DNA from: an uncultured Christensenella sp.
GTDB taxonomy: Bacteria > Bacillota > Clostridia > Christensenellales > Pumilibacteraceae
Assembly (NCBI GenBank): GCA_949948895.1
Contig: CATLHE010000001.1
Coordinates: 394,776 to 458,775 of the forward strand
Reading direction: 5' to 3'
Length of the DNA stretch: 64,000 bases
Under the pieces are notes generated by a model. That model saw nothing but the letters and a program-made list of their open reading frames with translations. It was not told where the DNA came from and searched no databases. The translations under genes were made by a program, and so were the position numbers. Every line of letters starts with the position of its first letter. Within the stretch, counting starts at the first letter, position 1. Shown here piece by piece: positions 4,491 to 64,000 of this stretch.

Positions 4491-4922
4491 TCAAAACTTT
4501 TTGGTCATGATCATACCGTTTTTGCCTTTGTAGTACCCGCGTCTTATATGCACCGTGACGTATCCCGTCGCTTCGTACAGCTTTATAGCGGGCGTGTTGT
4601 CCTCGCGGACCGTAAGCGTCGACTCAGTCGCGCCGAGGCGCTTTGCCCGAGACTCCATTTCCGTAAGCAACGCCGAAGCGACGCCTTGTCTACGGTATTT
4701 TTCCGATACCGCTATATTGTTTACGTCGCAACAGTCTACGACTATCTCGCACGACGCATACCCTATGAGCTCGCCGTGTTCTTCCGCTACGAGAAAGACC
4801 GTATTGTCTCGCGCTATCTCGTCGCGTATCTGCTCGAGCGTCCACGGGCAATCGATATACGCAGTCTCGGCGGCGAAAACATAGTCCGCGTCGGTATGTT
4901 CCGCTCTGCGGATATTTATCAT
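4491..4922 (-). CDS. rimI: ribosomal-protein-alanine N-acetyltransferase
   Basis: A 143-residue GNAT acetyltransferase of the RimI type, which acetylates the N-terminal alanine of ribosomal protein S18 and possibly other proteins using acetyl-CoA. The acetyl-CoA loop is visible as YRRQGVASALL and the C-terminal substrate region as NTPAIKLYEATGY, both typical of RimI. It overlaps tsaB by four bases (ATGA). The order tsaE-tsaB-rimI is a conserved gene string in bacteria and supports the assignment over other GNAT families. Confidence 0.88.
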   Translation of the reverse strand: MINIRRAEHTDADYVFAAETAYIDCPWTLEQIRDEIARDNTVFLVAEEHGELIGYASCEIVVDCCDVNNIAVSEKYRRQGVASALLTEMESRAKRLGATESTLTVREDNTPAIKLYEATGYVTVHIRRGYYKGKNGMIMTKKF

Positions 4923-5539
4923 AGATCGCCGACGCCGCGCTCGGGCTGAGGTTTTCTCACGTACAGCGGCAAAAGTTCCGCTTCACCGATAGCGTTTTCT
5001 ATGTGTTTTTCGACGGCTATTTTAAGCTCTCGCTCGCCCACACCGGAGAACGCATCGGAAAAGACCGACGCGAGCTTTTTATCCGTGGAAACGGCATGAT
5101 CCGAATGCTCGGCAACGATACGCTTAGCCTCGTCGAGCGTTACGCAGTGCGGCGGCTCTATCTCACTGTCGCCGTCGTACAGCGCGATATAGCAAACGCG
5201 ATTGCCCGCATCCGCTATGGATATGACCCTGCCGCTATTGTTGTTATATGAATTGAGCCGCAGATTGTTTACGGCAAAACACGGCTTGCCCATGGCGTAG
5301 CAGAAAGTCTTTACCGTTGTAAGCCCGATACGAAGCCCCGTAAACGAGCCCGGTCCGATACATGCGCCTATAATATCCAATTTATCGAGAGAAGTCTTTG
5401 CACGGCGCAGTAAGCCGTCTATCATGAGCAACAGCGTCTCAGATCCCGCATTTACTTCGTTCTCGTCGTAATAGGTTTTGCCACCGTAGCCCAATAACGC
5501 TCTCGTTCCTTCCGCCGTATCGATAAACAAATAATTCAT
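4919..5539 (-). CDS. tsaB: tRNA N6-threonylcarbamoyladenosine synthesis protein TsaB
   Basis: TsaB is the ASKHA-fold partner of TsaD and TsaE in forming t6A at position 37 of ANN-decoding tRNAs. The protein is 206 residues and carries the diagnostic GPGSFTGLRIGL motif at about residue 60 and the N-terminal phosphate-1-like strand LFIDTAEG. It overlaps the upstream tsaE fusion gene and the downstream rimI by four bases each, so translation is probably coupled. tsaD itself is not in the window. Confidence 0.93.
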   Translation of the reverse strand: MNYLFIDTAEGTRALLGYGGKTYYDENEVNAGSETLLLMIDGLLRRAKTSLDKLDIIGACIGPGSFTGLRIGLTTVKTFCYAMGKPCFAVNNLRLNSYNNNSGRVISIADAGNRVCYIALYDGDSEIEPPHCVTLDEAKRIVAEHSDHAVSTDKKLASVFSDAFSGVGERELKIAVEKHIENAIGEAELLPLYVRKPQPERGVGDL

Positions 5540-6681
5540 CTTTTTATCTTGACCTCGCGAACGCCGTCCTTACCGTCGATCTTGACAATAGTGACCGACA
5601 CGGTTTCAAGCCCGTCGAACATGCCTTCTATGTTTTCCCACCACTCGACCGCGCATACGCCGTCGCCGTTTATATATTCGGAAAGCCCCGCCGCTTCCGC
5701 TTCGTCAGCCGAAGCAAGACGGTACGCATCGATATGGTTAAACTTGAGATTTCCCGTATGCTCGTTTAAAAGCGTGAACGTGGGCGAAAGCACCTCGCCC
5801 GCGACGCCGAGCCCCTTGGCAAGCCCCTTACAAAACACGGTCTTACCCGCGCCGAGCTCGCCGCTCAACAGCAATACTTCGCCGCCTTTTAACGTGCCTG
5901 CGACCTTTTTACCGAGCTCTTGCATTTCTTCGGGCGACGCTACGGTATATACTTCCTCACTGCCGCCGAAACTTTCGCCGCTCATATCGCTCTGCGCCGA
6001 GACTTGTGCGCCGTCGGTATCTCCCGCGGCTTTAACGGGCGCGCCCTTGCGCTTTTCTCTGAAAATATAGCTAAACAACCGCTGGAACTGCTTATACAGT
6101 ATAAGCACCGCCGCGGAAATTAAAAGAGTCTTTACAAAATTAAACAGCACCGCCCATTGCCAAACGTCGAGATAAAACTCCATGCCCGCAGTCCAGCTGC
6201 TCGCGCCTGCATACGCCATGAGAAAGAACGGGAACGTAAGCAAGTAGTTTACGGGCACCGACCACACGGCTTGAGCGACACAGGCTATAGCGAGAGTCGC
6301 GAACACCGTTTTGATGTTGCGACGGCGCAAATACACTATAGACGGAATAAGGATATACGGCAGCATTATAATTATGTTTGCAAGCTCGCCTACGCCTACC
6401 GTCTGAGAAAACGTGACCGCGTGCAAAAGTTCTTTGAGTACGCCGACTATAACGCCCGCTATCGGTCCCAAAGCGAATCCCGCCATCATGACAAACGCAT
6501 TGGAAAAGTCTATCTTTAAAAACGGGACCGCCGGGATAAGCGAAAATTCGAATATCGGAAAATACAGCAAGTACGCGAGCGCGGTAAACACCGCCATGCG
6601 CGCTATGTTCTTTGCCGTAAACATTTCTTTTGCCCGCTCTTTTGCGGGGCGCTTGTTTTTCTTTGCCATCGAGTCTCCCAT
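5536..6681 (-). CDS. fusion of a RibU-like ECF transporter S-component with TsaE ATPase
   Basis: One uninterrupted 381-residue frame joins two unrelated proteins. Residues ~22-205 form about six membrane helices with PFLKIDFSNAF, GFALGPIAGVIVGV and VGVGELANI, which match the substrate-binding S subunit of energy-coupling-factor vitamin transporters, most like RibU for riboflavin. A ~35-residue Gly/Ser linker follows. Residues ~245-381 are TsaE, the t6A-pathway ATPase, with Walker A GELGAGKT at 274-281, TFTLLNEH and an EWWEN motif. AGGAGG lies five bases before the ATG. The downstream overlap with tsaB fits the tsaE half. Separate proteins generated by proteolysis or internal initiation cannot be excluded. 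Confidence 0.88.
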   Translation of the reverse strand: MGDSMAKKNKRPAKERAKEMFTAKNIARMAVFTALAYLLYFPIFEFSLIPAVPFLKIDFSNAFVMMAGFALGPIAGVIVGVLKELLHAVTFSQTVGVGELANIIIMLPYILIPSIVYLRRRNIKTVFATLAIACVAQAVWSVPVNYLLTFPFFLMAYAGASSWTAGMEFYLDVWQWAVLFNFVKTLLISAAVLILYKQFQRLFSYIFREKRKGAPVKAAGDTDGAQVSAQSDMSGESFGGSEEVYTVASPEEMQELGKKVAGTLKGGEVLLLSGELGAGKTVFCKGLAKGLGVAGEVLSPTFTLLNEHTGNLKFNHIDAYRLASADEAEAAGLSEYINGDGVCAVEWWENIEGMFDGLETVSVTIVKIDGKDGVREVKIKR

Positions 6682-6690
6682 GGTTTCCTC

Positions 6691-7569
6691 CTAAATTTTA
6701 GCCGCTTTGAATATCATCGGCGCAAAAAGCGCCGCCCAGATCGCCATTACGAAATACCGTAAAAAGCAATAAAGCATAGGTATGCTTTGCGGTAAAAACA
6801 GCTTGAACGTGTACTGTATACCTATCGTTACTATTCCGCCGAACAGCACACGAAGCACGTATCTCGATTTTTTACCGTTCTCGCGAACGTCGTACTTGAC
6901 GAACCTTTTCTCTATGAAATAGCCTATGTCAAACGCGACAAACGCGCCCAAGCCTTTTAATATATCGGCGCTTTCGTCGAGCTTGCCGAGCCCCGCAAGC
7001 GTTCCGATTATAACGGCGGCTATGACCAAGCCCGGAACGATAAACCATTCTTCTTTATCCTTAAAGAGCGAAAGCAACGCGTTAAACGCAATGGAAAGGA
7101 ATATTCCCGCCGTAAGCCCGCAAAATACGTCGGATAAATAATGCTGTCCCAAATACATGCGCGACACCATGACTAGCAAAGTAAGCATGGTAAATATGAT
7201 CGGTACGGCTTTATGCTTTTTTCCGTACTTGACTGTAAGCATGGTGGAAATACTCGCTATGCTCTCGGTATGTCCCGACGGGAACGAATAGGTCGTTTCT
7301 TTCTTGCTCAGACTTCGCACGTCGTCGTAAGCGTTAAACGGCCGCGCGCGTTTAAAACTTTGTTTCATAACGTTTGTGACAGCCACGCCCAATATGTACA
7401 CGTTAAAGAATCTGAATGCGTACTTTTTGTCGACACACCAATAAAGCACTACCGCTATCAGCAAAAACAGCGTTTCCGTACCGAAAAACGAAAACACTTC
7501 GTTTATAACGGTGAGCGCGGTATTGGCATGCGCTTGCAGCGCACGTATCAGATCAACTTCAAACTGCAT
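6691..7569 (-). CDS. PAP2-family membrane phosphatase
   Basis: A membrane phosphatase of the phosphatidic-acid-phosphatase type 2 family, 292 residues with about six to eight hydrophobic helices. The three active-site blocks are present in order: KQSFKRARP, SFPSGHTES and SRMYLGQHYLSDV. Likely substrates are lipid phosphates such as undecaprenyl pyrophosphate or phosphatidyl(glycero)phosphate on the outer face of the membrane; sequence alone does not decide which. Start and stop overlap by one base with the upstream nadD fusion (TGATG), so the gene is in the same operon. Confidence 0.88.
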   Translation of the reverse strand: MQFEVDLIRALQAHANTALTVINEVFSFFGTETLFLLIAVVLYWCVDKKYAFRFFNVYILGVAVTNVMKQSFKRARPFNAYDDVRSLSKKETTYSFPSGHTESIASISTMLTVKYGKKHKAVPIIFTMLTLLVMVSRMYLGQHYLSDVFCGLTAGIFLSIAFNALLSLFKDKEEWFIVPGLVIAAVIIGTLAGLGKLDESADILKGLGAFVAFDIGYFIEKRFVKYDVRENGKKSRYVLRVLFGGIVTIGIQYTFKLFLPQSIPMLYCFLRYFVMAIWAALFAPMIFKAAKI

Positions 7570-9227
7570 CAGTCTCCGAACCTCGTAACATTTTTACCGT
7601 CCGCCCAGAGTCTTTCTATATTATAAAACTCGCGCGTCTTATCGGTAAATATATGCACGATTACGCCGCCGTAGTCGAGCGCCACCCATTCGCCGTCAAC
7701 GTCGCGGCGCGTAGGGTCGAGCCCGTACTTTTTGGTCAATATGTCCTCGGTATAGCCCATGAGCGCTTTCACCGCCGTAGTGGACGACGCGGAAGCGACA
7801 ACGAAATAATCTGCGATTATAGTCTTGCCACCGAGGTCTATGATATCTATATCGTGCGCCTTATGCAAACTCAGCTCTGCGGCTACCGTAAACGCGATTT
7901 CACGGATCCTGTTCTTTTCTTTATCGGCTACGGGCGCGAGTTCCGCCGACGGTTTTACGGCGACCGATTTATCGGGTTTATTGAACACAGCCATGGCTTT
8001 AGATTTTATCTCGCTGAGTTCGCGCCCGCCGCGCACCACGGGAAGCGTACCCGACTGCGCTTTATCGTAGCTCTGCCGAGGCTGGTCCTCCGTCGCGGTC
8101 TTATCTTTTATTCTCGCGGCATAAAGCGCTATCGCGTCGTCGGTAAATTTGCAAGGAACGGCGTCCTCTCTATAACCCGCGATAAGCGGCAAGATATACG
8201 CCATAGCCTCGTCTTTATCGCGAGCGCACAGCTCGCGCAAGCGATATACTTGGTCATACCGTCTGCCCGCCTCGCTCTTGTCGGCAAGATAGACTATCTC
8301 GTCGAGAAGCGTCATATTGCCGTCCGCGGTAGTATGCACGCGTATCGCGCGCGCTATTTCGTCCGATACCCCGAATTCCTTTTGCGCTATGTACGCGCCT
8401 ATGGGAGCGTGAACGGTGGGCTCGGGATACCCTTCTACGTCGACTGCGCCTGTGTACTCTTTTGCGTCCGTCGATTTTGCAACGTCGTGCAAAATGCACG
8501 CGACTACCGCATCGCGCACAGACCCGCCGTACAGCTTGGCAAGCTCGGCACCGCGCACGGTCGTGCCGTAAATATGCTCTAAACGTTTTTGCGAAAGACC
8601 GTGAGCTTTGAGCGCGGCGACGTACTCTGAATACGGATCGAACAATCCCTTGGCTTCCGCGACCTTACGCACGATATCGGGTACCGATTGGTTAGACTTT
8701 TTGAACGCGGAATCTATCTTTATCTTCGTCGAGCTTATTGCAAGACCGTTGAACTTTGCCGTCTTGAGCTTGACCTTGCGCTTTTTTAGCAATGCGATAT
8801 CGGCGTCACTCGCTTCATACCCGGGTCTCGGCACAACCAAGAACGTAACGAGCGTTTTGAGTTTGTCCAGATCGTGCCAATCGTGCAAGCGTTTGACTTC
8901 TTCGCTTCCTATTACCCAAAACAACGCCGCGTCTTTGTATTTTTTGGCAAAATACGCCGCGGTGTCCACCGAGTAGCTCACGCCTTTTTTGTTTATCTCA
9001 CGGGAACAGACTTCCGTCTTGTCCGAAACAAACAATTTCTTGCACAGCGACAGCCTGACTTTTGCGTCCTCGCTGCCGTCAGTTTTAAACGGCGATATAT
9101 ACGACGGAACGACTATCACTCTGTCGAACGCGCGTTCAAGGTTTTTTACGATATCGTAATGCCCGTAATGCGGCGGATCGAAACTCCCGCCGAAAATAGC
9201 TATTTTTTGTTTTCTCTCAGCTTTCAT
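7569..9227 (-). CDS. NadD-YqeK-RsfS triple fusion
   Basis: One 552-residue frame carries three functions. Residues ~7-196 are nicotinate-nucleotide adenylyltransferase (NadD) with GGSFDPPHYGH and ISSTKIK, the NAD synthesis step that makes deamido-NAD. Residues ~205-375 are an HD-domain hydrolase of the YqeK type (ILHDVAK with HD at 247-248), known to cleave Ap4A. After a ~60-residue linker, residues ~437-547 are RsfS, which binds ribosomal protein L14 and blocks subunit joining in starvation (DIIDLGGKTIIADYFVVASA, DYGGVIVHIF). The three genes are usually adjacent, in this order, in Firmicutes. The start overlaps the obg end by 11 bases. Confidence 0.92.
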   Translation of the reverse strand: MKAERKQKIAIFGGSFDPPHYGHYDIVKNLERAFDRVIVVPSYISPFKTDGSEDAKVRLSLCKKLFVSDKTEVCSREINKKGVSYSVDTAAYFAKKYKDAALFWVIGSEEVKRLHDWHDLDKLKTLVTFLVVPRPGYEASDADIALLKKRKVKLKTAKFNGLAISSTKIKIDSAFKKSNQSVPDIVRKVAEAKGLFDPYSEYVAALKAHGLSQKRLEHIYGTTVRGAELAKLYGGSVRDAVVACILHDVAKSTDAKEYTGAVDVEGYPEPTVHAPIGAYIAQKEFGVSDEIARAIRVHTTADGNMTLLDEIVYLADKSEAGRRYDQVYRLRELCARDKDEAMAYILPLIAGYREDAVPCKFTDDAIALYAARIKDKTATEDQPRQSYDKAQSGTLPVVRGGRELSEIKSKAMAVFNKPDKSVAVKPSAELAPVADKEKNRIREIAFTVAAELSLHKAHDIDIIDLGGKTIIADYFVVASASSTTAVKALMGYTEDILTKKYGLDPTRRDVDGEWVALDYGGVIVHIFTDKTREFYNIERLWADGKNVTRFGD

Positions 9228-10473
9228 ACATAAACTCCGTATCGAGGATGCGAACGGTGTCGCCGTCCTTTATCCCCGCTTTTTTTAACGCTTTCGTAAC
9301 GCCGCCGTCGTCCAGCCTGCGTTGGAAATACGCAAAGCTGTCGCGGTCTTCCAAAACGACCGTTCGCGCAAGCCGCTCTATCATCTCGCCGCCGAGAACG
9401 AACGCGCCGTCGTCCGCGCGGGCAACTGTAAACGCGTCGGGATCGGCGTCGGGATATTTATACGGCTCGTATTCTATAGGCGCAAGCGGCGGAAGCACTG
9501 CGAGCTTGTTTACCGCGGCGCGTATAAGCTCCTTTATCCCGCCGTGCGTAACAGCGCTTATTTCATATATCTCGCCGTCCACCGCGTTTTTAAACGCTTG
9601 TATATTTTCCTTAGGTGCGCTATCGCACTTATTGAGCGCTATTATCTGCGGCACATCTTTCAACTCCGCATTATACTTGAAAAGCTCCGTATTGACGTTG
9701 TTATAATCGGACACGGGATCGCGCCCGTCCGCCGCCGATACGTCCACCACGTGTATAAACAGTCTTGTGCGCTCCACGTGACGCAAGAACGTATGACCGA
9801 GCCCCGCGCCGTCGCTCGCGCCCTCTATAAGACCGGGTATATCCGCTACGGTAAAGTTCCCGTCGTCGGTCGCGCAAACGCCGAGATTGGGCGTGAGCGT
9901 CGTGAACGGGTAATTCGCTATCTTGGGATTGGCACGTGTGAGTACGGAAAGCAACGTCGACTTGCCTGCATTGGGAAATCCGACAAGTCCTACGTCCGCT
10001 ATCGTTTTAAGCTCCAATATGACCGAGTGTTCTTTAGTCGGCTCGCCTTTCTGCGAAAAGCCGGGGGCTTGCCGTCTCGACGACTTGAACCTTGCATTGC
10101 CCTTGCCGCCTTTGCCGCCCGCAAGCACGGTAACACTGTCGCCGCCGTAAAAAAGGTCTGCGATTATGCCGCCCGTTTCTTCGTCGCGCACGACTGTGCC
10201 TCTCGGGACTTTGAGCACAAGGTCCGCGCCGTTCTTGCCGTGACGATTTTTTCCCGAGCCCGCCGTGCCGTTTTCCGCGCGATAATGCTTGCCGAACCTG
10301 AACTCCGAGAGCGACGCGATATTATCGGCGGCACATATAATCACGCTGCCGCCGTCGCCGCCGTCGCCGCCGTCCGGTCCGCCGTTGGGTACGTATTTTT
10401 CGGTGTAGAACGACGTGCATCCGTCGCCGCCGTTACCCGCTTTTATATAGATTTTAGCTCTGTCTATAAACAT
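9217..10473 (-). CDS. obgE: Obg-family GTPase
   Basis: Obg (CgtA) is an essential GTPase tied to 50S ribosome assembly and stress signalling. The 418-residue protein has the glycine-rich N-terminal Obg fold (GGDGCTSF, GGDGGDGGS), a GTPase domain with G1 GFPNAGKST, G3 DIPGLIEGA and G4 NKCD, and a C-terminal OCT domain (~345-418). It lies between nth and the nadD-yqeK-rsfS fusion; obg-nadD-yqeK-rsfS linkage is widespread, so ribosome quality and NAD genes travel together here. It starts six bases after nth with only a weak GGA as ribosome binding site. Confidence 0.95.
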   Translation of the reverse strand: MFIDRAKIYIKAGNGGDGCTSFYTEKYVPNGGPDGGDGGDGGSVIICAADNIASLSEFRFGKHYRAENGTAGSGKNRHGKNGADLVLKVPRGTVVRDEETGGIIADLFYGGDSVTVLAGGKGGKGNARFKSSRRQAPGFSQKGEPTKEHSVILELKTIADVGLVGFPNAGKSTLLSVLTRANPKIANYPFTTLTPNLGVCATDDGNFTVADIPGLIEGASDGAGLGHTFLRHVERTRLFIHVVDVSAADGRDPVSDYNNVNTELFKYNAELKDVPQIIALNKCDSAPKENIQAFKNAVDGEIYEISAVTHGGIKELIRAAVNKLAVLPPLAPIEYEPYKYPDADPDAFTVARADDGAFVLGGEMIERLARTVVLEDRDSFAYFQRRLDDGGVTKALKKAGIKDGDTVRILDTEFMYES

Positions 10474-10479
10474 ATCCGA

Positions 10480-11121
10480 TTATTTTTGACCGACTGCGGG
10501 CACGTTAACCGCTCCGCTCCCGTATTTACAAAACTTAGCCACCACGCACTCGTCGCACTCGGGGTTGCGGGCATGACAGCACGCCCGCCCGTGATGGATA
10601 AACAAAAAGTGCGCCGACTTATACTCGCTCTCTTCAAACGCCGCGCAAAGATCGCGCTCTACTGCGTCGGGAGTATTGCCGTCCGAAAGCCCCAGCCTGT
10701 GCGCTACGCGAAATACGTGCGTATCCACCGCTATCGCAGGCTTATCGAACGCGATACTGAGCACCACGTTCGCCGTTTTCCGCCCTACGCCCGCGAGCGA
10801 CGTAAGCTCTTCCATCGTGCTCGGGACTTGTCCGCCGAACTTATCCACGAGGTCGCGACAGCAAGACTTGATATTTTTCGCTTTGGCTTTATACAGTCCG
10901 CACGAGCGAATGAGCTCCTCGAGCTTGTCCGTTTCGAGCGCACAAAACTCTTCGGGCGTATCTGCGACCTTAAAAAGCTTTTCAGTCACAATATTGACGC
11001 GCTTATCCGTGCATTGAGCGCTTAGAATGACGGATATCAAAAGCTCGAAACTGTTTCCGTAGTTCAGCTCGCAAGTCGCGTCGGGATACGCTTTATCGAG
11101 TTCTTCCAAAAGCAAGTTCAT
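10480..11121 (-). CDS. nth: endonuclease III
   Basis: A base-excision repair DNA glycosylase/AP lyase acting on oxidised pyrimidines. The 213-residue protein shows the helix-hairpin-helix with the catalytic lysine (LAGVGRKTANVV), the catalytic Asp in VDTHVFR and the four-cysteine [4Fe-4S] loop with spacing C-x6-C-x2-C-x5-C near the C-terminus. It is the first gene of the ten-gene operon. Its ATG lies six bases after a -10 box and no Shine-Dalgarno sequence is present, so a leaderless transcript is predicted. Confidence 0.95.
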   Translation of the reverse strand: MNLLLEELDKAYPDATCELNYGNSFELLISVILSAQCTDKRVNIVTEKLFKVADTPEEFCALETDKLEELIRSCGLYKAKAKNIKSCCRDLVDKFGGQVPSTMEELTSLAGVGRKTANVVLSIAFDKPAIAVDTHVFRVAHRLGLSDGNTPDAVERDLCAAFEESEYKSAHFLFIHHGRACCHARNPECDECVVAKFCKYGSGAVNVPAVGQK

Positions 11122-11199: not shown

Positions 11200-11463
11200 T
11201 TACCTGTCGTTTTGGTTTCCCGCATTGTACAAAGAGCGATAGCTCGACCCGTCAAACTCGTATACGGCGCGAAGCCCTTGATAATATCCGCGGCTCAAAA
11301 CGTCGCTGCAAGTCGCATAGTCGGTACACTTTACGGACAGCCCGCACCCGCTTCCGAACAGTGTCGGAGTATTGACAAGTCTTGCATACGCGCCGCGGCA
11401 AGTAACGTCGTCGCGGAAACGCATTGCGCCGTTTCTCGATGAAAACGAAAAAATGTATTCCAT
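11200..11463 (-). CDS. DUF3343 small protein, putative Se/S carrier
   Basis: An 87-residue protein resembling the DUF3343 family: N-terminal EYIFSFSSRNGAMRF followed by a conserved GSGCGLSVKC cysteine segment. DUF3343 proteins are annotated as putative selenium/sulfur carriers and often sit beside a cysteine desulfurase, as here, where one diverges 97 bases away. A thiol relay for sulfur or selenium is therefore plausible but inferred. AGAGGA lies about 12 bases before the ATG, which is further than usual. A TTGACG-like -35 is present but the -10 placement is uncertain. Confidence 0.72.
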   Translation of the reverse strand: MEYIFSFSSRNGAMRFRDDVTCRGAYARLVNTPTLFGSGCGLSVKCTDYATCSDVLSRGYYQGLRAVYEFDGSSYRSLYNAGNQNDR

Positions 11464-16542: not shown

Positions 16543-17153
16543 CTATCCGCCTCCGAATCGGTTATCCGTTCTCCCAAAAAGTTTACAGTTGCGCCGAGCG
16601 GCGACAACCGCGCCGCGACATCCGCATCTGTCGGCGCTATCGCAACAAACCCGACGCGCTCGTTAAAAACAATGCTCTCTTGCTTACAGCCCATTCCTCG
16701 CAATAACGGCTGTATTTTCTTGTACGCGTCGCCGTCGCATTCTATCCCGTACGCCGCTTTGATCTCGAAGCCACTAAGCCCCGCCGCGGCGATTACCGAC
16801 TCCGCGCTGTCGCGGTAAGCGTGAGTAAGACCGCCCGCACCAAGCTTTATTCCGCCGAAGTATCTTACTACGGCTATCATGGAGCGTCGAGCGCCGCTCG
16901 ACGCGAGCGCAGTGTAAATGGGCTTGCCTGCCGTGCCCTGCGGCTCTCCGTCGTCGTCGTACCCGAACTCCCGTCCGGCGTCGTCGGCTATAAACGCATA
17001 ACACACGTGCCGCGCGTCGCGATGACGCTTTTTGAGCTCAAGCGCAAATTCTTTCGCCTCGTCGCGCGAACTCGCTCCGCGCGATATGGCGATGAACCGC
17101 GAGCGCTTGACCAGCGTTTCAGTCTCGCCGTCGTTTAATCGGTATAACATCAA
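16539..17153 (-). CDS. yigZ: YigZ/IMPACT family protein
   Basis: A 204-residue member of the YigZ (UPF0029/IMPACT) family. The N-terminal domain carries FIADDAGREFGYDDDGEPQG followed by TAGKPI and RYFGGIKLGAGGL, the family hallmark; the C-terminal ~70 residues match the DUF1949-type ferredoxin-like domain. The biochemical role in bacteria is not settled; the eukaryotic homologue binds the translation regulator GCN1. It overlaps tyrS and ilvE by four bases on each side. Confidence 0.9.
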   Translation of the reverse strand: MMLYRLNDGETETLVKRSRFIAISRGASSRDEAKEFALELKKRHRDARHVCYAFIADDAGREFGYDDDGEPQGTAGKPIYTALASSGARRSMIAVVRYFGGIKLGAGGLTHAYRDSAESVIAAAGLSGFEIKAAYGIECDGDAYKKIQPLLRGMGCKQESIVFNERVGFVAIAPTDADVAARLSPLGATVNFLGERITDSEADR

Positions 17154-59905: not shown

Positions 59906-60130
59906 ATGATTACTATCGAGCAGATTCGCGCCAAGCTCCAAGAGGCAATACGCACGAGCGGGCTTAAACAAAGCGAAATAGCGCGGCGTTTAGGGATTAA
60001 ACACACTCAAATATCTTGCTATCTAAACGGATCTAAAATGCCCTCGCTCGAAACTTTTGCCAATATTTGCGTCGTGCTTGACGTCGAACCCAACGACATA
60101 CTTTGTTTTGAAGATTATAAATCCGAATAA
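59906..60130 (+). CDS. XRE-family repressor, copy 1
   Basis: A 74-residue protein made only of an XRE helix-turn-helix domain (QSEIARRLGIKHTQISCYLN). AGAGGTGA lies five bases before the ATG. It probably binds the repeats directly upstream and represses itself and the divergent gene. A second copy, identical at 47 of 74 positions, follows 118 bases later. Confidence 0.85.
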   Translation: MITIEQIRAKLQEAIRTSGLKQSEIARRLGIKHTQISCYLNGSKMPSLETFANICVVLDVEPNDILCFEDYKSE

Positions 60131-60248: not shown

Positions 60249-60473
60249 ATGATTACGATCGATCAAATTCGAATGAAACTTATCGACGCCATTAAAACAA
60301 GCGGCAAAACTCAAACCGAGATCGCAAAGAGCATAGGCATTAGACCGACGCAGATCAGCTCTTATATCAACGGGCGTAAACTACCCGCTCTCGATACGCT
60401 CGCTAACCTATGCGTCGTGCTTGACGTCGAACCTAATGAAATACTCTGCTTTGACGATCACACGCACAATTAA
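60249..60473 (+). CDS. XRE-family repressor, copy 2
   Basis: A 74-residue paralogue of the gene at 59906 with the same domain (QTEIAKSIGIRPTQISSYIN) and an identical core CVVLDVEPN. The recognition helix differs (IRPTQISSYINGRK against IKHTQISCYLNGSK), so its DNA target may differ. AGGGG precedes the ATG by seven bases. The 29-bp repeats are absent in front of this copy. Confidence 0.85.
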   Translation: MITIDQIRMKLIDAIKTSGKTQTEIAKSIGIRPTQISSYINGRKLPALDTLANLCVVLDVEPNEILCFDDHTHN

Positions 60474-60566: not shown

Positions 60567-60586
60567 TCCGATACAACGTCCACCAC
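60567..60586 (+). repeat. CCACCA-ending direct repeat, copy 1
   Basis: TCCGATACaaCGTCCACCAC, followed by an A-rich tract. It matches copy 2 at 18 of 20 positions, 206 bases away. Confidence 0.65.
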
Positions 60587-60772: not shown

Positions 60773-60792
60773 TCCGATACCCCGTCCACCAC
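60773..60792 (+). repeat. CCACCA-ending direct repeat, copy 2
   Basis: TCCGATACccCGTCCACCAC, preceded by CGCATCGAA, which resembles a tRNA T-loop. The CCACCAC end is also the left arm of the palindrome at 60786-60832. Confidence 0.65.
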
Positions 60793-60832
60793 AAAAAAAC
60801 CGTTTGCAAAGCAAACGGCTTTTTTGTGGTGG
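60786..60832. terminator. 47-base palindrome acting as a bidirectional terminator
   Basis: CCACCAC, A tract, CCGTTTGC-AAA-GCAAACGG, T tract, GTGGTGG: one mismatch over the full length. The core with its T tract is a textbook terminator in either direction. Confidence 0.85.
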
Positions 60833-60898
60833 AGCGGTAGTAACCTAAAACGAATTTTATACGATAAAATAAAATTTATCGTAAAGTTTGTCCGTTTC

Positions 60899-61369: not shown

Positions 61370-61464
61370 AAAATCTCCAAATCACTGTTTATAGTAAATA
61401 GATTATAACATATTGAAAAACCAAAATCAATGCTTTTATCGAGTAATTATTAAAATGGCACTGT

Positions 61465-61520
61465 GGCGGGTGCTTGATAATAACAAGCGCGGCGCTGCGC
61501 GCCGCGATCAAGCACCCGCC
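61465..61520. other. GC-rich hairpin with CTTGATAATA, candidate rolling-circle double-strand origin
   Basis: Outer arms GGCGGGTGCTTGA and TCAAGCACCCGCC pair perfectly over 13 bases; inner arms CGCGGCGC and GCGCCGCG pair over eight with a three-base loop. The sequence CTTGATAATA (61473-61482) spans the top of the left outer arm and the bulge. This decamer is the conserved nick region of pC194-type rolling-circle plasmids, and a YxxxY HUH initiator gene lies 0.9 kb downstream. Confidence 0.6.
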
Positions 61521-61549: not shown

Positions 61550-61621
61550 AACGCCGAGCGGACAAAGGCGTCGCCGCTGAACCGCTTGGCGATCGCCTTT
61601 GTGTTCTCGCTCGGCGGCGTT
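61550..61621. other. large three-tier hairpin next to the candidate origin
   Basis: Three nested stems are stacked: AACGCCGAGCG with CGCTCGGCG(g)CGTT, ACAAAGGCG with CGCCTTTGT (nine perfect pairs) and TCGCC with GGCGA, around a 12-base loop. With the neighbouring hairpin it makes a structured block of about 160 bases in otherwise A+T-rich DNA. Confidence 0.65.
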
Positions 61622-62045: not shown

Positions 62046-62177
62046 ATGCTCAATACAAAGCTCGACGTCGTTGTTGTCGGAACGCCCGACATAACGAAGC
62101 TGCCTACAAGCGAACAAAGAGCATTCTTTGAAACGCTGTACGCAAGAGTTTTGGAATTGGCAAAGAAAAAGGAGTAA
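62046..62177 (+). CDS. small protein of the mobile element, 43 aa
   Basis: Too short for the ORF track, but well supported: a perfect AAGGAGG (62031-62037) sits eight bases before the ATG. The product has a hydrophobic strand (LDVVVVGTPD) and a helix ending in KKKE. Its position as first gene before the replication initiator suggests a copy-control or accessory role, which is inference only. Confidence 0.7.
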   Translation: MLNTKLDVVVVGTPDITKLPTSEQRAFFETLYARVLELAKKKE

Positions 62178-62415: not shown

Positions 62416-63288
62416 ATGCCGTATAGAAATTGCAAAATCTATTCCGACGGCGGTCATTACATAGCCATACCGAGCGAAAACTTTTCGCACGGCAAAAAGC
62501 GGTCGAAGTCACCGATAAAAGAACAGCCCCACAAAGCCGAGTTTGAAACGGCTTACAAAAACAGTCAAGCATTGCCGAAAAAGGAACGCAAGGACTTTAT
62601 AACCGAACAAATAAAGAACGAGTTTAATTCGTCCGAACAAGCAAAGCAATATGTCGAACAGCAAACCGAGCGCAAGAAAACAAACGCCATAAAACGCCGA
62701 GTAAGATTATTTCGTAAAGTGCATTTGCAAGAGTGGAATTACTTTGTAACATTTACATATTCTAATGAGCTTCACGACGAAAATACTTTTAAGAAAAAGC
62801 TAATGAATACGCTTAAACACCTTGTAAGCCGTAAAGGTTGGAAATACATAGGCGTATGGGAACGAAGCCCCGAAAAGCAAAGACTTCATTTTCACGGAAT
62901 ATTTTACATACCCGAAATGATTGGCGAATTAAAAGCCGTAACCGATTACGATACCGTATCTCACCGAAAACAAACAACATACCAAAACACGCATTTTCTG
63001 AAACACTTCGGGCGAAACGATTTTAAGGCGTTAATGCCCTACGATATTGACCGTTCCGTTAGGTATATACTCAAATACATAGAAAAGAGCGGCGAAAGAT
63101 TATGCTACGGTGGAAAATTGCCGACATACATAAAGAGCCATATACTCGATGACGATGTACTTTGTCCGTATGGAGTGGCAAACAAAAAGCTATTGTTATT
63201 CGACGATTTCACTTGTATTGACGACGACGGCGTAGTTATGGGCAAGGCTTCGCCGGAAGTAATAAAAAATATGCCCAAGTGCAATTAA
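62416..63288 (+). CDS. HUH-endonuclease replication initiator (rolling-circle Rep)
   Basis: About 290 residues from the ATG at 62416, which follows AAGGAG by ten bases; the tracked start at 62293 is a GTG in the leader. Three HUH motifs are visible in order: FVTFTY (~110-115), LHFHGIF with the metal-binding H158 and H160, and RYILKY with two candidate catalytic tyrosines Y217 and Y221 spaced YxxxY as in the phiX174 gpA group. It should nick a double-strand origin and start rolling-circle replication. A Lys/Arg-rich N-terminal ~100 residues may bind DNA. The candidate origin at 61465-61520 supports this. Confidence 0.82.
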   Translation: MPYRNCKIYSDGGHYIAIPSENFSHGKKRSKSPIKEQPHKAEFETAYKNSQALPKKERKDFITEQIKNEFNSSEQAKQYVEQQTERKKTNAIKRRVRLFRKVHLQEWNYFVTFTYSNELHDENTFKKKLMNTLKHLVSRKGWKYIGVWERSPEKQRLHFHGIFYIPEMIGELKAVTDYDTVSHRKQTTYQNTHFLKHFGRNDFKALMPYDIDRSVRYILKYIEKSGERLCYGGKLPTYIKSHILDDDVLCPYGVANKKLLLFDDFTCIDDDGVVMGKASPEVIKNMPKCN

Positions 63289-63513: not shown

Positions 63514-63993
63514 ATGAAAACAGCAGTAATTTATGCTCGATATTCGAGTGACAGCCAAACCGAGCAAAGTATTGACGGACAACTCCGAGTATGTACGGAA
63601 TACGCCAAGAACAACGACATACTCATACTCGACACCTACATAGACCGCGCTATGACGGGTACGAATGATAATCGCCCCGATTTTCAGCGTATGATTAAAG
63701 ACAGTGCGAAAAAGACGTTTCAAATCGTACTTGTTTACAAATTCGACCGTTTTAGCCGTAACAAATACGAAACGGCTATGCACAAGAAAACGCTCAAAGA
63801 TAACGGCGTTAAAGTCGTATCGGCTACCGAGTATATTCCCGACAGCCCCGAAGCAATTATACTCGAAAGTATGCTCGAAGGGTTTGAGCATACAAATGGA
63901 CACAATAAATTAAAATCAGAATTAAAGCAGTCAATTCAATGTAAAATAACAATGCCGCCATTGAGCAAATCTCTAATGGCGGCATTGTTGTAG
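63514..63993 (+). pseudogene. truncated large serine recombinase
   Basis: The first ~128 residues are the catalytic resolvase domain of a large serine recombinase (integrase): catalytic Ser in YARYSSDSQTEQS, YIDRAMTGTNDNRPDF and VYKFDRFSRNKYE, and EAIILESMLEGF. Family members are about 500 residues; here the frame leaves the family at EGF and ends after ~30 unrelated residues that read through an inverted repeat. The gene is therefore broken, or the sequence is joined wrongly near 63890. AAAGGAGA precedes the ATG. It would have integrated or excised the element. Confidence 0.82.
63951..63986. terminator. 12-bp perfect inverted repeat at the window edge
   Basis: AATGCCGCCATT and AATGGCGGCATT pair perfectly across a 12-base loop. 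It may be a terminator or the end of an inserted element that truncated the recombinase gene. Confidence 0.6.
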
Positions 63994-64000
63994 CTAAAAA

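Follow-up and report, generated by a model that had tools for sequence, protein, structure and literature searches.

Double-strand origins of the pC194/phiX174 type are served by HUH-type Rep proteins that nick at CTTG^ATA; the phiX174 initiator gpA has two tyrosines. HUH proteins are also the sole transposases of IS91/ISCR elements and Helitrons, of which IS91 inserts at GTTC/CTTG and Helitrons between A and T. Integrative and mobilizable elements that combine rolling-circle relaxases with serine integrases form a further known class. Among filamentous phages (inoviruses), CTXphi is accompanied by the satellite RS1, and a report from 2024 is said to describe a plasmid satellite of an inovirus.

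The window analysed here is a stretch of 64,000 nucleotides. It contains a hairpin (hairpin B) that we describe as a covariation-supported DNA signal marking tRNA-associated elements, widespread in uncultured gut Clostridia and linked to inoviruses. We found no description of this element family in the open-access papers searched, and this tRNA-associated family of mobile elements is apparently undescribed. Two points become testable with it: how a single integrase might act on many tRNA genes, and whether filamentous virions carry small Rep-only elements. Loci, genomes and contigs are numbered L, G and C; all window features lie on the plus strand.

A bulged hairpin near an HUH Rep

Hairpin B occupies positions 61465–61520. 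Its outer arms, GGCGGGTGCTTGAT (61465–61478) and ATCAAGCACCCGCC (61507–61520), form an inverted repeat of 14 bp with 100% complementarity. Folding as DNA gives −29.9 kcal/mol (z −6.3), a value equalled by none of 200 shuffled sequences. The predicted layout consists of the 14-bp outer stem, a 9-nt bulge (AATAACAAG, 61479–61487), and an 8-bp inner stem closed by a 3-nt loop (CGCGGCGC-TGC-GCGCCGCG, 61488–61506). The preliminary description had located this hairpin correctly and given its stem as 13 bp, one pair too short. Elsewhere in the window, a single site has a comparable stem of 13 bp that also encloses an inner one; 30 simulated windows together contained one match. The decamer CTTGATAATA (61473–61482) is not rare when taken alone: a second copy lies at 11277 of the window, and the genome holds five in total.

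The gene for a 290-residue Rep (62416–63288) starts 896 bp away, leaving the hairpin outside rep as first described. Rep matches PF23343 (REP_ORF2-G2P, E 9.2e-12) and carries the anticipated HUH and YxxxY motifs as HFH and YILKY; H158-F-H160 and Y217xxxY221 are invariant in 22 aligned relatives. The best meaningful fold matches of its predicted model (mean pLDDT 88.8) are HUH Rep domains. Among HUH nuclease domains, this model weakly resembles those of geminivirus, circovirus and nanovirus Reps (best E 0.02); it also matches predicted microvirus initiators. By sequence, Rep has no significant match to any solved structure or solved Rep and none in IMG/VR; one match of 43% identity lies in a 57-kb record named 'Bacteriophage sp.'. 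We also considered a plasmid, and found no match to Rep in 72,556 plasmid records.

A covarying hairpin family

Hairpins of the same kind are present in nearly all loci with relatives of this Rep, taken from the genus, the family, the order and 36 public Clostridia loci. Across an alignment of 28 distinct related hairpins, pairing holds in 98.6% of the outer-stem cells, and both partners have changed in 13 of the 16 pairs. No shuffle out of 500 reached this level of covariation, and the signal is lost when the partner strand is slid. The inner stem-loop is freely variable in sequence. The bulge motif AC[AG]AG (ACAAG at 61483–61487 in the window) is unpaired and nevertheless invariant in 28 of 28 hairpins.

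The preliminary description had placed the nick within CTTGATAATA and had made conservation of this decamer in related elements the test beforehand. Of the 28 hairpins, 27 keep CTTG, 14 keep CTTGATA and two keep the decamer; by that test, the exact cut site proposed is refuted. Furthermore, CTTG is paired within the outer stem, and the unpaired part that is kept, AC[AG]AG, sits at the opposite end of the bulge. CTTG can pair with CAAG of the bulge in many of the hairpins, forming a small alternative hairpin. Compared with origins of the pC194/phiX174 type, the window has a cognate HUH Rep with two tyrosines on the same element (as in phiX gpA), and a hairpin in which CTTG borders an unpaired, A+T-rich stretch. 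It differs from them in that only 14 of 28 hairpins keep CTTGATA, the invariant motif is AC[AG]AG of the bulge, CTTG belongs to a covarying stem, and Rep lacks significant sequence similarity to solved Reps.

Of 297 genomes from the host's order, 82 contain the hairpin according to a covariance model; they span 32 of 126 genera and hold as many as nine copies each. Since the model contains the bulge motif, these matches are biased toward it. Several loci show variant or broken forms. L095 has a short hairpin B without inner stem (17074–17115, plus strand) behind an intact GGCAC end. Two remnants in the window's own genome, L025 (~1420–1545, G000 C3) and L002 (~720–1620, G000 C4), keep one half of hairpin B, up to CTTGAT; one of them adjoins a tRNA-Ile gene with the right element end, the other repeated 3' fragments resembling tRNA-Ser. 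Contigs frequently stop at or near the hairpin (many of loci L190–L229), and an assembly gap of Ns lies inside it at position 6246 of L099 (G060 C43), as expected of multicopy elements.

An integrative element at tRNA genes

The hairpin belongs to an element in which the end GGCAC is followed by hairpin B, hairpin A, an ORF of 43 residues, Rep and a large serine recombinase. Such elements measure about 3.3–3.9 kb, with ~3.9 kb for the one in the window. The left end on the attachment-site side is GGCACTGT (61457–61464), with host DNA to its left and hairpin B 8 bp inside it. GGCAC-TG/TT-TGGCGGG... is conserved in about 20 loci, and unrelated A+T-rich DNA precedes (T)GGCAC, which identifies GGCAC as the element end (61457 in the window). 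Hairpin A (61552–61616) has a long stem and a conserved loop (GCTGAACCGCTT, 61576–61587; GCTRAACCGCTT across the family) and accompanies B as a conserved feature of both the elements and the inovirus prophages; it is a candidate second-strand origin or other cis signal. The 43-residue ORF (62046–62177) is conserved in close relatives (L005, L007, L008, L009, L022). The recombinase begins about 190 bp after Rep and always follows rep in the tRNA-type elements. Its N-terminal part in the window (63514–63881) matches PF00239 (E 1.7e-25), and the recombinase of relative L006 has the Resolvase, Recombinase and zinc-ribbon domains (PF00239, PF07508, PF13408). By these domains and by its defined ends at a shared target, this is an integrative element of the large serine recombinase type.

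In relatives, a reversed tRNA gene lies at the right end, its 3' CCA directly adjoining the element. We collected 22 distinct junctions with 11 anticodons (Ala, Val, Ser, Tyr, Arg, Glu, Met, Lys, Leu), counts that carry less weight because of shared ancestry. Two elements that are 97.6% identical over 3.4 kb (L065 and L067) occupy different targets, tRNA-Lys and tRNA-Leu, and their similarity stops exactly at the two ends. The element has YGAAY 14 nt after CCA in 19 of 22 junctions (13 nt in two, absent in one); together with GTTCR of the tRNA, 16 nt before CC, it forms an inverted pair centred on C74. The opposite element end is GTGCC in every case. From these junctions we infer that the recombinase reads the T-loop GTTCR, mirrored by YGAAY of the element, which would explain the use of many tRNAs by one recombinase. 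Among relatives of G006 and G050 we found no intact empty site; the tRNA side is present and the left flank is not conserved.

The presence of an integrase and an HUH protein and the attachment at gene ends recall integrative and mobilizable elements. Unlike those, the elements described here are only about 3.3–3.9 kb in size, use many tRNA targets, carry an inovirus-type Rep, and have no accessory mobilisation genes that we could see. A transposon of the IS91/ISCR or Helitron kind, suggested by CTTG and a hairpin at the end, was set aside in view of the serine recombinase and the tRNA 3' ends as targets.

Filamentous-phage prophages and gene-less copies

The preliminary description recognised the hairpin and its link to Rep; it missed that the hairpin marks the end of an element inserting at tRNA 3' ends, the serine recombinase, and the sharing of the hairpin with filamentous-phage prophages. 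Some prophages encode Reps of 35–50% identity together with either a Zot-like ATPase (L100, L104, L133) or a membrane protein of about 700 residues (L084, L086, L102, L103). The Zot of L133 scores above the Pfam cut-off (PF05707), and its Rep matches PF23343. The 700-residue proteins are encoded directly before rep (L084 7775–9952; L086 7553–9709; L102, reverse complement, 8556–10682; L103, reverse complement, 4731–7028). They contain the Walker-like motif GSMGKKKTT, have no match in Pfam or NCBIfam, and are candidates for the morphogenesis ATPase of an undescribed inovirus lineage.

Hairpins A and B in these prophages lie downstream of rep, with their strand reversed relative to rep. One inovirus-type prophage is located in the same genome as the window (G000 C1, ~221.8–230.5 kb; L133 8827–17494). 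It contains a Zot-like ATPase, Rep, the hairpin, and an IS30-like transposase. Its hairpin is placed after Rep and has the bulge AAAACGAG in reverse complement. The hairpin also stands beside Rep in prophages without the tRNA-type recombinase (L084, L100, L102, L104) and in loci with another recombinase type (L073, L074, L075).

Zot or the 700-residue protein is matched in this distant prophage group and not in window-type elements. The window element resembles the inovirus intergenic region, with its origins and packaging hairpin, in the Rep family PF23343 and in the position of B and A beside rep in Zot-bearing prophages. It differs in having no Zot, coat or adsorption genes and in the reversed orientation of B–A to rep. 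Without a Zot/pI morphogenesis ATPase, it is not a complete inovirus.

We sorted a sample of 40 covariance-model matches by their neighbouring genes. Rep and recombinase on the strand of B accompany eight of them; six have Rep on the other strand with Zot or the 700-residue protein, three have only an opposite-strand Rep, and two have a recombinase with no Rep detected. The remaining 21 have neither Rep nor recombinase. Seven of these face a reversed tRNA gene 208–1191 bp away; no tRNA was found for nine, and the contig ended first in five. The short copies of 208–1191 bp have both ends and hairpin B, usually also an A-type hairpin, and no rep or recombinase gene. They must presumably be moved in trans. 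The hairpin goes with Rep and outlasts change or absence of the recombinase as well as the loss of all genes, as expected of a cis-acting origin.

Role of hairpin B

We propose that hairpin B is a cis-acting replication signal of a small integrative element, most likely its rolling-circle (plus-strand) origin, and assign this reading a probability of about 0.6. The origin of the preliminary description is retained as the best interpretation, with CTTGATAATA given up as its nick site; a conserved cis-acting feature on the same mobile element as a two-tyrosine HUH Rep is borne out by the hairpin family and its covariation. That the signal is tied to Rep follows from its position beside Reps in prophages lacking the recombinase, and from its persistence in copies lacking both proteins. 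With the hairpin family, the covariation, the Rep link, the element ends and the tRNA targets established from sequence, the nicking, replication, excision and trans mobilisation of the element may be pictured as follows. The serine recombinase would excise the element as a circle. Rep would recognise the stem and the bulge AC[AG]AG of hairpin B as a folded single strand, and would nick in the bulge or next to it. Rolling-circle copying would yield single strands, converted to double strands perhaps by way of hairpin A. Insertion of the circle at a tRNA 3' CCA end would fall to the recombinase, which would recognise the T-loop GTTCR, mirrored in the right end of the element. The same B and A signals would serve the related filamentous-phage prophages and be kept by the short copies moved in trans. 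Several observations count against this reading: the nick base is not fixed, with CTTGATA in only half of the hairpins; hairpin A is likewise conserved and could be the origin instead; the prophages have B–A in the opposite orientation to rep; the relatives of G006 and G050 yielded no intact empty site; and the window copy has an interrupted recombinase.

The strongest competitor, which we nevertheless regard as unlikely, holds that hairpin B is a packaging signal: the element would replicate with its own Rep and leave the cell in the virions of a helper inovirus, which would recognise B in much the way it packages its own single strand. Packaging and origin signals of Ff phages are hairpins in one intergenic region (PMC10334589). 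In inovirus-type prophages, including the one that shares the window's genome, B and A are found immediately downstream of rep. A packaging role would make the element an inovirus satellite. In agreement with this idea, it holds a replication gene without virion genes, neither coat nor Zot (B, A, the 43-residue ORF, Rep and recombinase are its whole content). As with RS1, Rep is the element's own, and helper-type phages occur in some of the same genomes. Unlike RS1-type satellites, the element has its own serine recombinase and tRNA targets and is not always accompanied by a detectable helper. The co-occurrence of hairpin and inovirus genes is suggestive (13 of 26 genomes against 6 of 35, p 0.007) and expected, because the prophages themselves carry the hairpin. 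For the autonomous element, association with an inovirus ATPase does not reach significance (4 of 7 genomes against 15 of 54, p 0.13). Neither ATPase is matched in genome G052, which contains the element and is scored 100% complete. A further point against packaging is that the co-resident prophage hairpin has an outer stem different from that of the window element.

We consider it still less probable that hairpin B contributes to the attachment site, where the serine recombinase would bind it as an arm site or in the form of a folded single strand. The attP of CTXphi is a comparable hairpin; B lies 8 bp from the conserved GGCAC end, and the short copies retain both. However, prophages without the GGCAC end and without the tRNA-type recombinase keep B, as do elements with the other recombinase type (L073–L075), and serine recombinases work on double-stranded sites. 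An RNA-level structure at the element edge (a terminator or regulatory RNA) is very improbable: B is a strong intergenic stem-loop and covariation by itself cannot separate RNA from single-stranded DNA, but no T-run follows the stem on either strand, Rfam has no match, the orientation relative to rep is opposite in the two groups, and copies without genes keep the hairpin.

Returning to hairpin B as a replication signal, we offer a broader and rather doubtful extension from these data. In Clostridia, a single hairpin of single-stranded DNA might support three tiers of parasitism. Filamentous phages would form one, satellites that carry Rep and a tRNA-targeting recombinase another, and gene-less elements of 0.2–1.2 kb, parasitic on both, the third. 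The bulged hairpin would serve in the replication of all of them and possibly in their packaging, and by reading the T-loop the recombinase could use almost any tRNA gene.

The copy in the window

The recombinase of the window element is interrupted by an insert (63882–64000, where the contig ends), and the copy may therefore be immobile. The match breaks off after ~63881, and the remainder lies close to the end of contig C10; 5 bp, GAAGG, are found on both sides of the insert. The part of the element on C10 ends at a tRNA (Tyr by sequence) that adjoins a second tRNA, and the window contig C1 and C10 are probably joined. The insert begins with GTTTGAGC.T.CAAATGGACACAA and is seen in the window (63882–64000), in L078 (from ~11427) and in L108 (reverse complement, 1–125). 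It hits the same conserved recombinase codon in two genomes, the window's and that of L078, and is a site-specific insertion.

Elsewhere in the window, positions 60785–60833 form an inverted repeat of 23 bp (96% complementary, 3-nt loop), and part of its arm sequence, gtccaccacaaa, is found again near 60578. Two similar tandem ORFs of 74 residues and helix-turn-helix type lie at 59906–60130 and 60249–60473.
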